From a bacterium (GTDB taxonomy: Bacteria; Electryoneota; RPQS01), in NCBI GenBank assembly GCA_013360195.1, contig JABWCQ010000005.1:62001-126000 (forward strand): DNA of 64,000 nucleotides, read 5' to 3'. Below the pieces are notes generated by a model. That model had not been told where the DNA came from. It worked only from the letters and a program-made list of their open reading frames with translations, and searched no databases. Made by a program: the position numbers and the translations under genes. Of this stretch, positions 2,496 through 59,645 are shown piece after piece (position 1 is the stretch's first letter; each line of letters opens with the position of its first letter).

Positions 2496-2981
2496 ATGAG
2501 TAAAGCACCTTCTACCTTGACCGCAGCAGTAATGCTTGCGGTTTTCTTGTGTCTGGGAGGTGCGAAGATTTTCGCGCAGTGCACGTTGTGTATTGACGGG
2601 GGTACTGACCAAACATGCAGTGGGTCATATGATGACTGCGGATCAGACTACGCAAATTGTACAAGCTCGGGGGCATTCACTGTTCCTTGCGACGGCTCAT
2701 ATACACTCAGCGCGGTCATGGATTGCAATGGAGAGGGCTGCCATTGTTCGTCTTGTGTTCATGTTGTGAAAGAAACGACAGGGGTGATTGTGGGCTGGAC
2801 TGACAGCGACTGCAATCAATCACAATGCCAAGCTTCTGTAACTGTTTCTTTGCTAATCAACACGACATACCGCCTTTATGTTTGCAAACGTCCTTGCGAC
2901 GGCTTGTCAACGTGTGAAGAGTGTGATACAGATTGCAAGGCAAAAGGCTGGCTACACAGAGAAGTACTCTCCTGTCCATGA
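2496..2981 (+). CDS. Secreted 18-cysteine protein, unit 1
   Basis: I do not recognise a named family. The 161-residue product has a clear signal peptide (LTAAVMLAVFLCLGGAKIFA, cleavage before QCT) and a mature part with 18 cysteines, enough for nine disulfides. A recognisable end motif is YRLYVCKRPC followed by CEECDTDCKAKGW. A homologue with the same cysteine number lies at 4751-5239 and a more distant one at 57581-58081. The start at 2496 is set by GGAGG six bases upstream and by the signal peptide. The stop overlaps the start of the following beta-helix gene by ATGA, so the two are translationally coupled. Inference: an exported, disulfide-stabilised partner of the beta-helix protein, in the periplasm or at the surface. 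No membrane anchor, lipobox or sorting domain is visible. Confidence 0.85.
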   Translation: MSKAPSTLTAAVMLAVFLCLGGAKIFAQCTLCIDGGTDQTCSGSYDDCGSDYANCTSSGAFTVPCDGSYTLSAVMDCNGEGCHCSSCVHVVKETTGVIVGWTDSDCNQSQCQASVTVSLLINTTYRLYVCKRPCDGLSTCEECDTDCKAKGWLHREVLSCP

Positions 2982-4621
2982 GAGTCTTAATCTTCATAGT
3001 TATTGCCGCAGGTGGTATAACGAGCGGACTCTGGGGGCGGACACTTGCTGTACCGGAGGAATACAACAGTATCGGAAATGCTGTCAATGCGGCGCTCAGC
3101 GGTGACACAATTCTCGTGTCGGCAGGACTGTATGAAGAAGCACTCTCCATTCCAGCAATTACGCTCACAATTCGTGGCACACAGTTGCTGGACTCGGCTA
3201 CGACGGAGTTTGCAATATTAGATCCGACAGGGCTTCCGGGATCTGATACGATGTCTTGCGCAAAATTGTACGGCAGCAGCGTAACATTTGAAGATTTTGT
3301 GTTTCGCAATCGTTGGCAGATGACGGAAGGCCGCGCGGGTTCAAGCACAGGCGGAATCGCTGGCGATACCGCGTCGCGTGAAGTAATATTCCGCAGATGT
3401 GTGTTTGATTCGGTACATGTCGGCGTTGCCCGGATTCCGCGGATGACGTTCGACCATTGCCGGTTTGTGGGGTCGAAAGTGATTGCGGCCTACACATTGT
3501 TTACCGGGAAAGTCTATGCAGACGGGACATGGTTTGATGGTGCAACAGGCTCATTGGTGTATTCCCGCAGAGGAGGACACATCAAGGACTGTCTGTTCAC
3601 GCATCGTGGCACGGGTTATTTGTTTCTGGGCCTGGGCGACAGTCTAGTCGTTGACGGCTGTCGTTTTGTCGGGTTGTCTCCACAAACAGGTGAAGCGTTA
3701 ATAATCCGACCTCGCTGCGGCTCAGAGCTGCGGAACTGCGTTTTTGAGAATCTGCTTGTTGGCCATCCGGTTATTGTTATTCAGGACTCGTGCTTCAACC
3801 AGCCAAAAGGCTGGGAATGCGCGATGAAAGTGACCAACAATCGATTTGTGAATTGCGGATGGGGAGGATTCCCGGAAGGCCAAGGGGGAGAAATGATCCT
3901 GGTGAAATGCAGCGAAGCATCAACTCAGGGTTACATCGCATATCTGGACAGCAATAGCGTGGATTCCGTTGGTGAAGTGAGGGGATCCGCCTCCGGATTC
4001 CTAATTGAGACATCATGCACAATCAAGAATACCCGGTTTGGCAACATACTTCCGGCAAACAAACCACAAATCTTCCTTAACTGCCTTGGCGGCCTGGACA
4101 CCATTTACGTGCGGGGAACAGATTTTTCGCAGGACTATGACGGGATAACTCGCGGTTCACTTGACGGGTCTGTCGTCGACGCCCGTTGGAACTGGTGGGG
4201 ACACGAGAGCGGGCCGTATCATCCGGAGAACAATCCGCAAGGACAAGGGGCAAGTGTTGATGACGGAATCCGGTTCAATCCGTGGCTGTTTTCTGACCCG
4301 GATACCTCAACTCACGGGGACACAACCGAGTCAGTTGGACCTGAGATTGATCTTGTACCGGAGCAATTTTCGATTCGCGCATTTCCGAATCCGTTCAATG
4401 CGCTGACAACACTTGAGATTGAGGTTGCGCGGGCAGGTGAATATGAAGTGGTGTTGTATGATGTGACGGGAAGAATTGCCGCGAACGTTTTCAGAGGGAG
4501 AATTGAGCATTCACAACGACTGAGTGTGGATGCGGCGGGGTTAGCGAGCGGAGTTTATTTTGCACAGTTGACCGGACAGGGCGATGCATCCGCCTTGACC
4601 AAACTTTTGTATTTGCGATAG
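2978..4621 (+). CDS. Right-handed beta-helix protein with type IX sorting domain, unit 1
   Basis: The 547-residue product has a signal peptide (MRVLIFIVIAAGGITSG), a body of parallel beta-helix coils (DGDTILV-type opening, then repeated short strands ending in N or C, such as IKDCLFTHR, VDGCRFVG, LRNCVFENL, VTNNRFVNC), the capping motif NWWGHESGPYHPENNP, and a C-terminal sorting domain from about residue 469 (FPNPFNALTTLEIEV, LYDVTGRIAANVF, GLASGVYFAQL, ending KLLYLR). The fold resembles pectate-lyase-like and NosD-like helices, but no catalytic signature is evident. By its ends it should be exported by Sec and then moved to the surface by the type IX system whose porU/porV lie at 33-40 kb. 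It overlaps the cysteine-rich gene by four bases. Its final 386 bases are nearly identical to the second unit while the helix body is diverged. Confidence 0.9.
   Translation: MRVLIFIVIAAGGITSGLWGRTLAVPEEYNSIGNAVNAALSGDTILVSAGLYEEALSIPAITLTIRGTQLLDSATTEFAILDPTGLPGSDTMSCAKLYGSSVTFEDFVFRNRWQMTEGRAGSSTGGIAGDTASREVIFRRCVFDSVHVGVARIPRMTFDHCRFVGSKVIAAYTLFTGKVYADGTWFDGATGSLVYSRRGGHIKDCLFTHRGTGYLFLGLGDSLVVDGCRFVGLSPQTGEALIIRPRCGSELRNCVFENLLVGHPVIVIQDSCFNQPKGWECAMKVTNNRFVNCGWGGFPEGQGGEMILVKCSEASTQGYIAYLDSNSVDSVGEVRGSASGFLIETSCTIKNTRFGNILPANKPQIFLNCLGGLDTIYVRGTDFSQDYDGITRGSLDGSVVDARWNWWGHESGPYHPENNPQGQGASVDDGIRFNPWLFSDPDTSTHGDTTESVGPEIDLVPEQFSIRAFPNPFNALTTLEIEVARAGEYEVVLYDVTGRIAANVFRGRIEHSQRLSVDAAGLASGVYFAQLTGQGDASALTKLLYLR
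4178..4563 (+). repeat. Near-identical 386-bp direct repeat, copy 1
   Basis: This block encodes the beta-helix cap and sorting domain and aligns without gaps to 6442-6827. By eye there are about 20 differences, so roughly 95% identity, against much weaker similarity in the beta-helix body upstream. It is a product of tandem duplication with conservation or gene conversion of the 3' end. Confidence 0.9.
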
Positions 4622-4655
4622 TTTAGGAGCATTGATTTTATTCTAGTTCACACGC

Positions 4656-4750
4656 TTGACAAATCGAAGGCTTTCGAATATCTTGTTACAGGTGCCGACA
4701 GAAGCGGCGCACGTTTGGGCGGAAAACTTAGCAGAATTCGGAGGCTTGCC
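4656..4750 (+). promoter_or_regulatory. Promoter and ribosome site of second Cys-rich/beta-helix unit
   Basis: TTGACA at 4656-4661 and TATCTT at 4679-4684 are separated by 17 bases. The predicted transcript start near 4691 is followed by a weak, bulged hairpin (GTGCCG with CGGCGCAC). GGAGG (4740-4744) lies six bases before the ATG at 4751. No terminator separates this promoter from the end of the first unit, so read-through is possible. Confidence 0.7.
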
Positions 4751-5239
4751 ATGGCAAAAGTACCTTTCACCTTGACCGCAGCGGTTATGCTTGCGGTTTT
4801 TTTGTGTCTGGGAAATGCGAAAATTCTTGCGCAGTGCACAATCTGTGTTTCGGCAGTGGATCAAACCTGCTCGGGGTCCCATGCGGACTGTGAGACAAGT
4901 ACGGGTGGGTGCAGTTCATCGTCTGTATTTCAAGTGAGTTGCAACGGCAGTTACGATTTGGGCGCAAAGATTTACAGTTGCACAAATGCCTGCGATTGCA
5001 ATTCGTGTGTAATGGTATTGAAGGAAGCAAGCGGCTCTGTTCAGGGTTCTATTCGGTCATTTTGCGAGAACCAGCTATGCTCGCAGACTACCACCGTGTA
5101 CCTTGAGACAGGCATTGACTATCGTCTCTATGTCTGTAAGCGGCCTTGCTCATCCGATCCAGGTATCGACTGTGAAGATTGTGACGAGGACTGCAAAGCT
5201 CTTGGCTGGGTGAGCGGCGCAGTGACGAGTTGCCCATGA
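4751..5239 (+). CDS. Secreted 18-cysteine protein, unit 2
   Basis: Paralogue of the 2496-2981 product: 162 residues, the same signal peptide with few changes (TLTAAVMLAVFLCLGNAKIL), and again 18 cysteines in the mature part. Shared patterns are QCTIC near the N-terminus, SCNGSY, a CDCNSC cluster, YRLYVCKRPC and CEDCDEDCKALGW, and a terminal SCP. The intervening loops are diverged. At the DNA level the signal-peptide segment is much more alike than the mature segment. The start follows GGAGG by six bases. The stop overlaps the next start by ATGA. The function is unknown; the coupling and co-duplication with the beta-helix gene argue that both products work together. Confidence 0.85.
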   Translation: MAKVPFTLTAAVMLAVFLCLGNAKILAQCTICVSAVDQTCSGSHADCETSTGGCSSSSVFQVSCNGSYDLGAKIYSCTNACDCNSCVMVLKEASGSVQGSIRSFCENQLCSQTTTVYLETGIDYRLYVCKRPCSSDPGIDCEDCDEDCKALGWVSGAVTSCP

Positions 5240-6885
5240 GAAGCGCAACTTGTTTACTCATCATTGGCCATCTGATTGCACTACCGGCTTTCAGTGAAGT
5301 GCTACGCGTACCTTCTGTATATGGAACCATTCAGTTCGCGCTATCAAATGTGAGCGATGGGGATACAATTCTTGTCGCGCCGGGGATATATGTAGAATCG
5401 CTGACCACGCCGCCTCGAGTCTTCACATTGAAAAGCGAAGTCCGATTGGATTCAAGCTCGACACAGTTTGCAGTGTTAGACCCGACAGATGTCCCGGGGT
5501 CTGACACTTTGGCAAGCCTTACATTAACCGGAGGTCGCGTGTTCATAGAGGACATGGTCATTCGCAACCGTAGTGGAATGACGGACGGTAGGCCAAGCAG
5601 CATTTCAGGCGGTGTCGTCGGTGATACGGCAGTGCACGAGATATCGGCGACAAGGTGTCTTTTCGATTCTGTGGCAGGCGGGATTTCGCAATGTGATAGA
5701 ATTACACTGCGAGGGTGCCGATTTATCGGTTCCAAAGGCAGCGCAGTGTTTACCGGACTATGGCGCGGCAAACTATTCGCCTATGATACCTGGTTTGATG
5801 GAGCGAATGGGGGGCTGGTTACAAGCGGACGCGGCTGTGAGATAAAAAATTGTTTGTTTACTCAGCGCGGCGAACTTTCAATGTTTGTCGGTCTTGGTGA
5901 CAGTCTGTATATCGAGAATTGCAGATTTGTCGGACTTGATACCATGCGTTTCAATGCTGTGCAATTGCGTCCTCGTTGCGGATCCACCATTCGCGATTGC
6001 GTGTTCGAAAACATCGTAATCAACGGTGGAAACGCTTTATGGGTAACGGACACATGTTTCAATCAGCCCAAAGACTGGGAGTGTGTGTTTAAGATTATAA
6101 ATAATCGCTTTGTAAACTGTGGTTCATCAATTGGCGGTGTACAAAACGGCGGAGAGCCGATCTACATTCAATGTTCTGAAGGTTCCAGCCAGGGCTTTAT
6201 CGCATTGCTTGATAGTAATCGCATTGATTCGACCGGAAGCGTCCGTGGTCATGCATCTGGCATTCTTCTACGAGCATCCGCAGTAATACGAAATACGACT
6301 TTCGGGGACGTATTGCCGCATGGCAAACCGCAAGTTGCAATCTACAACCGATCACTAAACGACACGGTGTACCTGCGGTTCAACTCTTTTTCGCAAGACT
6401 TCAGCGGAGTAGATTACTTTCTGGCCGGTAATACGCTCGTTGACGCCCGTTGGAACTGGTGGGGACACGAGAGCGGGCCGTATCATCCTCAGAACAACCC
6501 GCAAGGACAAGGGGCAAGTGTTGATGACGGAATCCGGTTCAATCCGTGGCTGTTGTCTGACCCGGATACCTCAACTCACGGGGACACAACCGAGTCAGTT
6601 GGACCTGAGATTGATTTTGCACCGGAGCAATTTTCGATCCGGGCATTCCCGAATCCGTTCAATGCGGTGACGACACTTGAGATTGAGGTTGCGCGGGCGG
6701 GTGAATATGAAGTGGTGTTGTATGATGTGACGGGGAGAGTTGCGGCAAATGTTTTCAGAGGGAGAATTGAGCATTCACAACGACTGAGTGTGGATGCGGC
6801 GGGGTTGTCGAGTGGAGTTTATTTTGCCAGATTAAGCGGAAGTGAGGGAGCGCTTGCCGTTGGAAAGGTTTTGTTGTTAAAGTGA
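5236..6885 (+). CDS. Right-handed beta-helix protein with type IX sorting domain, unit 2
   Basis: Paralogue of the 2978-4621 product, 549 residues. It has a signal peptide (CLLIIGHLIALPAFS), beta-helix coils (IKNCLFTQR, IENCRFVGL, IRDCVFENI, INNRFVNCG), the cap NWWGHESGPYHPQNNPQGQG, and a sorting domain (FPNPFNAVTTLEIEV, LYDVTGRVAANVF, GLSSGVYFARL, ending KVLLLK). The start ATG at 5236 overlaps the stop of the cysteine-rich gene; a TTG two codons earlier is less likely. The 3' 386-base block is about 95% identical to unit 1, while the helix body is diverged in sequence but collinear. The gene ends just before a hairpin terminator. A role in surface binding of polysaccharide or another polymer is possible from the fold, but no catalytic residues can be assigned. 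Confidence 0.9.
   Translation: MRSATCLLIIGHLIALPAFSEVLRVPSVYGTIQFALSNVSDGDTILVAPGIYVESLTTPPRVFTLKSEVRLDSSSTQFAVLDPTDVPGSDTLASLTLTGGRVFIEDMVIRNRSGMTDGRPSSISGGVVGDTAVHEISATRCLFDSVAGGISQCDRITLRGCRFIGSKGSAVFTGLWRGKLFAYDTWFDGANGGLVTSGRGCEIKNCLFTQRGELSMFVGLGDSLYIENCRFVGLDTMRFNAVQLRPRCGSTIRDCVFENIVINGGNALWVTDTCFNQPKDWECVFKIINNRFVNCGSSIGGVQNGGEPIYIQCSEGSSQGFIALLDSNRIDSTGSVRGHASGILLRASAVIRNTTFGDVLPHGKPQVAIYNRSLNDTVYLRFNSFSQDFSGVDYFLAGNTLVDARWNWWGHESGPYHPQNNPQGQGASVDDGIRFNPWLLSDPDTSTHGDTTESVGPEIDFAPEQFSIRAFPNPFNAVTTLEIEVARAGEYEVVLYDVTGRVAANVFRGRIEHSQRLSVDAAGLSSGVYFARLSGSEGALAVGKVLLLK
6442..6827 (+). repeat. Near-identical 386-bp direct repeat, copy 2
   Basis: Gap-free partner of 4178-4563. It covers the end of the beta-helix, the linker and the sorting domain of the unit 2 protein. 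Confidence 0.9.
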
Positions 6886-57497: not shown

Positions 57498-57580
57498 TTG
57501 ACAAAGTCAGCTTTTTTTTGATATAATGACAGCAACCCCGCCTCGGCTGGGGGCGGGGCGCCAAACAATAGGAGGTTGCG
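57498..57580 (+). promoter_or_regulatory. Promoter and leader hairpin of third Cys-rich/beta-helix unit
   Basis: Perfect TTGACA (57498-57503) and perfect TATAAT (57522-57527) are separated by 18 bases. A G/C-rich hairpin (CCCCGCC 57536-57542 with GGCGGGG 57552-57558) starts at the expected transcript start. GGAGG (57571-57575) lies five bases before the ATG at 57581. Confidence 0.85.
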
Positions 57581-58081
57581 ATGAAGAGACATGTTTTGTG
57601 GGTCATATTGCAACTGCTGTACTGCACGACGGTATTTGGGCAGACGGATGATCCGGGGTGTAATAAACTTGTTATCGGATCGGATAGGGAGTGCTCAGCA
57701 GCGCCAAACTGTAACTCCTTAATTGGTTGTACATCTTACACTTTCCACGTGGACTGCGGGGGAACCTACAAGTTAAAGGCTATTGTGGATTGCGGTGAAA
57801 ACAATTGCGGTCACTGCGCATCTTGTGTAAGTATCTATACTGATCCACCTGGAGTCGCACCTGTTGCAACTGTTAACACATTAAGCGTCTGCGGCAACAA
57901 CTTATGCGCGGATAGCACAAATGTTACGAGCATGACGTCGGGCAACTATATTATGTATGTGTGCTTGATTCCATGTACTGATGAAGAAGAAGACATTGAC
58001 GCATGTTGCGAAGAGTTCATTGACATTTGTAAAGCTTACGGGTGTCTGGAATGGGGAACATCTGGCGCGGGATGCCTGTAA
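57581..58081 (+). CDS. Secreted 18-cysteine protein, unit 3
   Basis: Distant homologue of the unit 1 and 2 cysteine-rich proteins. The 166-residue product has a signal peptide (VLWVILQLLYCTTVFG) and 18 cysteines in the mature part. Matching positions are VDCGGTY (VPCDGSY, VSCNGSY), CGENNCGHCASC (CNGEGCHCSSC), VCGNNLC, and YIMYVCLIPC (YRLYVCKRPC) followed by an acidic, cysteine-rich end. Otherwise the sequence is diverged. It is followed after seven bases by the unit 3 beta-helix gene. The conserved cysteine number and gene order at an unlinked place argue for a conserved two-component unit. Confidence 0.82.
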   Translation: MKRHVLWVILQLLYCTTVFGQTDDPGCNKLVIGSDRECSAAPNCNSLIGCTSYTFHVDCGGTYKLKAIVDCGENNCGHCASCVSIYTDPPGVAPVATVNTLSVCGNNLCADSTNVTSMTSGNYIMYVCLIPCTDEEEDIDACCEEFIDICKAYGCLEWGTSGAGCL

Positions 58082-58088
58082 TTGATCC

Positions 58089-59645
58089 GTGGGAATTTGC
58101 CTACTCATCATATGTCTTTTCGAATCGCTGTTTGCCCGAATCGTCCATATTCCGGCCGAATTCGATAGCATTCAAGAAGGACTCGACTCTCTTTCTGAAA
58201 ATGACACGCTCATGGTCGCGTTGGGGACATATGAAGAGGCGCTGATTGCTCCTGCAATTTCTTTTACGATGCTTGGAGAAGTTGATTCAATGTTAGGCGA
58301 GAGAGTCCAGCCTGTCATTGACATAGCGAATCTAGAGCTTCCAGATTCAACTCCGTTGCTTGTTCTACAACGCTCATCGTCAGCAATAATCAGAGATTTT
58401 TATTTCCGGAACGGAGGTCGTGACTGTATTCGAAGTTGGGCAGATGGAACAGTGATTAGCAACTGTATTATTGATTCTGCATATTACGGCTTTAATCAGA
58501 AACAGGACAGCATTGGCGCCATTGTTAGACTTGAAGCATGTGACTTCAGATCGGTTTTGTTTACAGGCGTCATCGTTAGATATGGCAACACACTTTTGGC
58601 AAGGCTTTGCAAATTTTCAAGCTTTGAGAGCGGAATGCGAAGCCTTGTAAACGTCAGTTCATCCATACTCGATTCATGCGAGTTTTCCTGTGACGGCGGG
58701 ATGCGATTGCTCTCGGCTAGCCGTGGACCTCACACTGTAAAGAATTGCACGTTCGGCCCGGCTATCATGTCACCTTTTGAAAGCGCGGTATCAATAGGTG
58801 ACACAATGCCAATATTCATTAACAATACAATCCTTGATTGTGTATATGGAAACCACGCCGTCAGGATCGGCGCGGTGCTGCCTGATTCGGCGAGAATAGC
58901 AGGCAATACCTTCATTCGCTGTACGGGACTAAATGTTGGACAAATGGCGGCGGGCGCGTTGGGGATACTTTACACGACTACACCAACTGGGCGAGGCGCG
59001 CTCATTTTTGGCAATAGCTTCGTTGAGTGCGCGGGCTATGTGACGGCTGACGACATTTGGCCGTACGTAGGATATCCGGCTTTGATCGAGAACAACCGCT
59101 TCGTTCACGACAGCCTGAACGGCCTGCCTTCAATTGGCGGAAGCGGGGGTCCGTGGCAGGGGATGCCGCACACAATGAGGAATAACGTTTTTGTTGATTG
59201 CGGTTATGCGCTTGACGGTTCAGCGCAAACTGACGCTCGTTTCAACTATTGGGGCGACGCAAGTGGACCGTATCACGAGACGGACAACCCGCTTGGCTTG
59301 GGAGACACGATCACCGGGCCTGTTCAATTTATTCCGTGGTTGACGGATACGATTACTTCCGTGGATAATGAAGTTGAACTCCCACAGAGCATAGAGTTGG
59401 TTGTTTTCCCGAATCCATTTAACGCATCCACGACGCTGTCGTTTGAGCTGAAGCACGGGGCACACAGCGTGATTACCATATTTGATGTTTTAGGACGGGA
59501 GGTTTGGAGGTCTGCCGAGGAGTTTCGAACGATCGGCGCGCACAGCGTGCAGTTTGACGCAAGCGGCTTCGCGAGCGGTATCTACTTTGCCAAGCTGGTC
59601 ACACAATTCGAATCCGTTGCCGCGAAGATTGTCCTATTAAAATAG
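58089..59645 (+). CDS. Right-handed beta-helix protein with type IX sorting domain, unit 3
   Basis: The 518-residue product has a short signal peptide (GICLLIICLFESLFA), beta-helix coils (VISNCIIDSA, VKNCTFGPA, FINNTILDCV, FGNSFVECA, IENNRFVHDS, MRNNVFVDCG), the cap NYWGDASGPYHETDNPLGLG, and a sorting domain (VFPNPFNASTTLSFEL, IFDVLGREVWRS, FASGIYFAKL, KIVLLK). It is clearly diverged from the units at 2978 and 5236 but has the same layout. The start is GTG 58089, chosen from the signal peptide. A strong bidirectional terminator follows. Confidence 0.87.
   Translation: MGICLLIICLFESLFARIVHIPAEFDSIQEGLDSLSENDTLMVALGTYEEALIAPAISFTMLGEVDSMLGERVQPVIDIANLELPDSTPLLVLQRSSSAIIRDFYFRNGGRDCIRSWADGTVISNCIIDSAYYGFNQKQDSIGAIVRLEACDFRSVLFTGVIVRYGNTLLARLCKFSSFESGMRSLVNVSSSILDSCEFSCDGGMRLLSASRGPHTVKNCTFGPAIMSPFESAVSIGDTMPIFINNTILDCVYGNHAVRIGAVLPDSARIAGNTFIRCTGLNVGQMAAGALGILYTTTPTGRGALIFGNSFVECAGYVTADDIWPYVGYPALIENNRFVHDSLNGLPSIGGSGGPWQGMPHTMRNNVFVDCGYALDGSAQTDARFNYWGDASGPYHETDNPLGLGDTITGPVQFIPWLTDTITSVDNEVELPQSIELVVFPNPFNASTTLSFELKHGAHSVITIFDVLGREVWRSAEEFRTIGAHSVQFDASGFASGIYFAKLVTQFESVAAKIVLLK

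Follow-up and report, generated by a model that had tools for sequence, protein, structure and literature searches.

The genome from which the 64,000-nucleotide stretch of DNA analysed here (the window) derives carries a repeated two-gene unit, in which a gene for a small cysteine-rich protein (A) directly precedes a gene for a beta-helix protein with a type IX secretion system (T9SS) sorting tail (B). A profile built from the three A proteins of the window detected 12 core A genes in this 3.2-Mb genome (G000), all of them directly followed by a B gene, and the pairing in the window is therefore not due to chance. By the sequence searches, A constitutes a new protein family. It is known so far from a single bacterial family, where its genes lie in surface gene units that occur in multiple copies and turn over quickly. 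We give a probability of about one half to the reading that A is a dedicated Sec-exported partner of its own T9SS cargo B and that the paired units represent varied surface structures.

Units in the window and their upstream regions

The first unit (w1) comprises A1 (2496-2981, + strand; 161 aa), which by cysteine count and AlphaFold model has a signal peptide and an 18-cysteine beta-sandwich, and B1 (2978-4621, +; 547 aa), a predicted right-handed beta-helix protein with a type A T9SS tail (PF13229, PF18962, TIGR04183 and AlphaFold model). It is followed by w2, with a second 18-cysteine protein identified by cysteine count, A2 (4751-5239, +; 162 aa), and a second beta-helix protein with a T9SS tail identified by profile matches, B2 (5236-6885, +; 549 aa). 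The third unit (w3, 57581-59645) consists of A3 (57581-58081, +; 166 aa), an 18-cysteine protein that belongs to another subtype, and B3 (58089-59645, +; 518 aa), again with profile matches to a beta-helix and T9SS tail. A1 and A2 possess 19 cysteines each, of which one belongs to the signal peptide and the other 18 remain in the mature protein. The preliminary description of 2496-6885 as two units, each of an 18-cysteine signal-peptide protein and a beta-helix protein with a sorting domain, agrees with these counts and profile matches, and the third cysteine-rich protein that it mentioned is A3, which likewise has 18 mature cysteines and precedes a beta-helix gene. The same description had the stop and start codons overlapping as ATGA in both tandem units, and both junctions do read CCATGA, while A3 and B3 are separated by a 7-bp gap instead. 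Across all 27 intact A-B pairs the two genes overlap or lie within about 30 bp of one another.

A separate TTGACA-N17 promoter had also been proposed for each tandem unit, and promoter-like sites were recovered with a consensus scan, TTGACA-N17-TATATT for unit 1 (2403-2431, +; 11/12 matches, with the position kept in most paralogues) and TTGACA-N17-TATCTT for unit 2 (4656-4684, +). The promoter-like site of unit 3 reads TTGACA-N18-TATAAT (57498-57527, +). We infer that the A and B of each unit are made together from one short mRNA. The leader of unit 1 (2436-2495, +), with a GTGCACC hairpin and a ribosome-binding GGAGG, is conserved among paralogues; as a candidate RNA element it had no Rfam match and its fold was not better than those of shuffled sequences. 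When 2403-2580 of the window was compared with the upstream ends of paralogous units (L013, L014, L015, L016, L017, L073, and L074), synonymous sites in the signal-peptide codons of A were conserved among the paralogues and across two species (pS 0.15-0.4, versus about 0.8 elsewhere). The conserved codons include CTTGCGGTTTTTTTGT, a 16-base core that is nearly confined to A genes in G000 and a second genome of the family, G001. Together with the leader hairpin, this pattern suggests a nucleotide-level constraint.

Predicted structure and export of A and B

All three B proteins of the window score above the curated cut-off of TIGR04183, and B1 and B2 also exceed those of PF18962 and PF13229 (Beta_helix). 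The structural model of B (pLDDT 82) shows a right-handed beta-helix in which short strands form one coil after another and, C-terminal to it, a distinct sandwich that resembles the solved T9SS C-terminal domains of mirolase (TM of target, 0.69) and RemA (0.63). These sequence tests place B among the T9SS type A cargos, as one with a beta-helix; the N-terminus is hydrophobic and is taken as a signal peptide, and the genome possesses T9SS machinery (SprA, 730 bits). B would pass through Sec and then the type IX system and would stay attached to the cell surface by its C-terminal domain, with the beta-helix as the exposed part. The helix shares its fold with the right-handed parallel beta-helix proteins (PF13229; lyases, epimerases, and tailspikes) and gives weak matches to polysaccharide lyases, epimerases, and phage tailspikes, but the TM-scores are <0.5 and no active site was recognised. 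Because the conserved residues, including a DARxNWWGxxSGPYHP motif, look structural, B is more likely to serve as a scaffold or in binding, an enzymatic function being possible but less probable.

For A, no convincing match was found in Pfam, NCBIfam, PHROGs, PADLOC, PDB sequences, or phage or plasmid records, in keeping with the preliminary description, which had not recognised the family. AlphaFold predicts an eight-strand sandwich with a mean pLDDT of 87 and values >90 over most of the mature domain, which has about 130 residues. The model falls in the general jelly-roll/sandwich class, with weak, generic fold matches in the PDB to CBM6, CBM35, C1q, and GOLD domains; it differs from them in that TM-scores are mostly <0.5, identities are 4-17%, and no PDB chain matches in sequence. 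Assignment as a carbohydrate-binding module was rejected, given TM-scores <0.5 to CBM6 and CBM35 and the lack of a Pfam, NCBIfam, or PDB sequence match, and assignment as a lipoprotein was rejected as no consistent lipobox was seen by eye. Among 32 related rows, compared without a formal probability, the number of mature cysteines ranges from 16 to 23 and is even in 29, and the cysteines C29 and C65 either co-occur or are both missing (six rows) in every case. The even numbers and the joint presence or absence of C29 and C65 point to disulfides, with metal sites less likely. VKOR, looked for in five genomes, was not found, which counts against the partner reading.

A carries a Sec-type signal and no T9SS sorting tail. 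It would be exported by Sec and fold into a small beta-sandwich that about nine disulfides hold in place; since it has no tail of its own, delivery to the surface would need piggy-backing on another protein or some other route. As the partner of its own B, A may be a surface-carried subunit or may act as an escort in the folding or export of B. Adjacent genes for a surface cargo and a partner needed for that cargo occur in Flavobacterium johnsoniae as SprB and SprF, and the gene arrangement of the A-B units is alike. SprF-type partners are barrels of the outer membrane that accompany type B tails, whereas A, which accompanies type A tails, is predicted to be a small, soluble sandwich rich in disulfides. 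As A is not a barrel, having an eight-strand sandwich in its model and no Pfam match, the A-B unit was rejected as a cargo-barrel pair of the SprB/SprF kind. Cargos of the type IX system are generally regarded as single proteins, and no description of such an A-B pair was found in the literature searched. If the partner reading is true, a small partner that co-evolves with an entire cargo clade throughout the family would represent a novel arrangement, and the A-B units would be a clear test case for whether the T9SS can carry partners without a tail of their own.

Pairing across genomes and its exceptions

The 12 B genes that follow an A in G000 are also the 12 best matches to the B profile in that genome. 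A 13th match, on contig C25 (350 bits), has no A, though its G001 counterpart (L080) does, and the next match reaches only 211 bits. Core A genes occur in six genomes, all from one bacterial family (G000, 12; G001, 10; G002, 3; G003, 1; G006, 2; G008, 6), and are followed by a B in 28 of 34 cases (12, 9, 3, 1, 2, and 1, respectively), or in 27 of 28 with G008 set aside. Conversely, 28 of the 29 B-clade genes in the phylum (≥226 bits) come after an A. The profile search proposed as a check in the preliminary description thus recovered the pairing throughout the family, and neither A genes mostly lacking a B nor a place for A in a known family, the two outcomes named there as telling against a paired system, was found. 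In a search that covered about 375 genomes outside the bacterial family, none of the remaining genomes of the phylum, of which 39 were included in all, had an A, nor did any of some 347 beyond it. A search of a contig collection with the first A alignment returned no match, and one with B returned mostly unrelated beta-helix loci, among which only the G006 record (MAG SJ276) has an A.

With its tail above both cut-offs and a genome that encodes SprA and at least 150 T9SS tails, B resembles other type A cargos; it differs in forming a clade of its own with an adjacent A gene, while nearly all other tails in G000 have no A neighbour, apart from the exceptions given below. The number of tails, and the presence of SprA, compared with only 12 core A genes indicate that A is not a general companion of T9SS cargo. 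This bears on the idea that A is a periplasmic chaperone or escort only, left behind when B is exported, which we regard as unlikely. That A is made first, with a Sec-type signal and no sorting tail, from junctions that suggest translational coupling, would suit a chaperone; the many tails without a neighbouring A, the richness of A in cysteines and its rapid divergence, and the retention of A without B in G008 would not be explained by it.

In G008, five A genes lack a B and there is only one B-clade gene, which indicates that A can be kept without B. Four of the five lie in tandem (L090, 4542-6670, -), a separate expansion, and the fifth stands singly. One of the six core A genes that lack a B, in G001 (L078, 4060-7661, +), lies directly before the gene of a different T9SS cargo, a subtilase. 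At the matching place in G000 the A seems to be absent, judged from the length of the matching interval. More divergent A-like proteins (30-53 bits) are encoded at L117 (5286-5819, +), L086 (4417-4959, +), and L082 (4654-5112, +); the first of these is the one extra gene added in G000 by a broader A profile and is probably membrane-anchored, as the protein from L086 also appears to be. Two of the three (L117 and L082) lie ahead of genes for other T9SS cargo, which, like the A before the subtilase, speaks in favour of the partner reading. The B reading frame breaks in or near the tail in two G000 units (L018, 6198-7808, -; L020, 6547-7815, +), and a G001 unit (L077, 5330-6739, -), counted among the nine pairs of that genome, looks decayed, with a stop codon in A and a split B; sequencing error may account for the breaks in all three.

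Co-diversification and turnover of the units

Nearly all well-supported groups are shared by the trees of the 27 A and 27 B proteins. The only notable mismatch is the place of w1, which may result from gene conversion with its tandem neighbour. Pairwise distances of A and B are correlated (Mantel r = 0.80 over 27 pairs and 0.85 over the 12 in G000), and none of 5000 shuffles reached the observed value; when partners were shuffled within genomes, the maximum was 0.37. As no within-genome shuffle of partners matched the observed correlation, each A tracks its own B, and the sequence comparison fits units that duplicate and diverge as blocks. Because the two genes are linked, the co-divergence reflects joint inheritance and is not by itself proof of contact. 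Coupling and co-duplication, from which the preliminary description argued for a two-component surface system, are strongly upheld by the 28 of 34 pairs and the concordant trees; a strict dependence of A and B on each other is not, in view of G008, the subtilase locus of G001, and the C25 B gene that lacks an A.

In the main rival to the partner reading, A works on its own as a binding protein, secreted or periplasmic, and shares an operon with B for use under the same condition with no contact between them. The five A genes without a B in G008, the A placed before a subtilase, and fold matches to generic carbohydrate-binding and C1q-like sandwiches all favour independence, which we nevertheless consider rather doubtful, as B-clade genes are almost never found without an A and the diversification is partner-specific inside a single genome, although block duplication by linkage could also produce the latter. 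Under the partner reading, paralogous units with diverged pairs would provide a set of different surface structures, probably with a role in recognition or adhesion.

Entire units come, go, or are replaced at fixed positions. In the interval from nrfHA to a conserved gene downstream, G000 has w3 and G001 a unit from another clade (L074), with conserved flanks on both sides, and the nearest G001 relative of w3 lies at another locus (L075). The c10 unit of G000 (L019) is missing from the matching intergenic gap in G001 (L078). Downstream of a queG-like gene, for which only the upstream flank was compared, w1 and w2 in G000 correspond to a unit of a different clade in G006 (L088). No obvious repeats that would mark the ends of a mobile element were seen when the unit boundaries were read by eye. 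Many diverged copies of two linked genes that come and go at fixed positions would also suit a toxin-immunity or defence pair; with no PADLOC match, no toxin or immunity domain, export signals on both proteins, and conserved residues across the B copies that look structural, such a pair is highly improbable. A more specific form of the partner reading can be put forward tentatively, in which A is a co-exported, B-specific subunit and the bicistron is a swappable cassette under a shared promoter and leader, changing the repertoire of disulfide-locked surface recognition complexes.

The tandem units of the window also appear to exchange sequence locally. In the comparison of w1 with w2, the mature part of A and the core of B are saturated at synonymous sites, while pS is 0.05 at the start of the C-terminal region of B. 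The 3' parts of B1 and B2 (4170-4570 and about 6440-6840) are about 95% identical, compared with about 50% for most of the rest of the units. This mosaic is read as a sign of recent local gene conversion between the tandem copies, and a weaker version of it is present in the other tandem pair of units.
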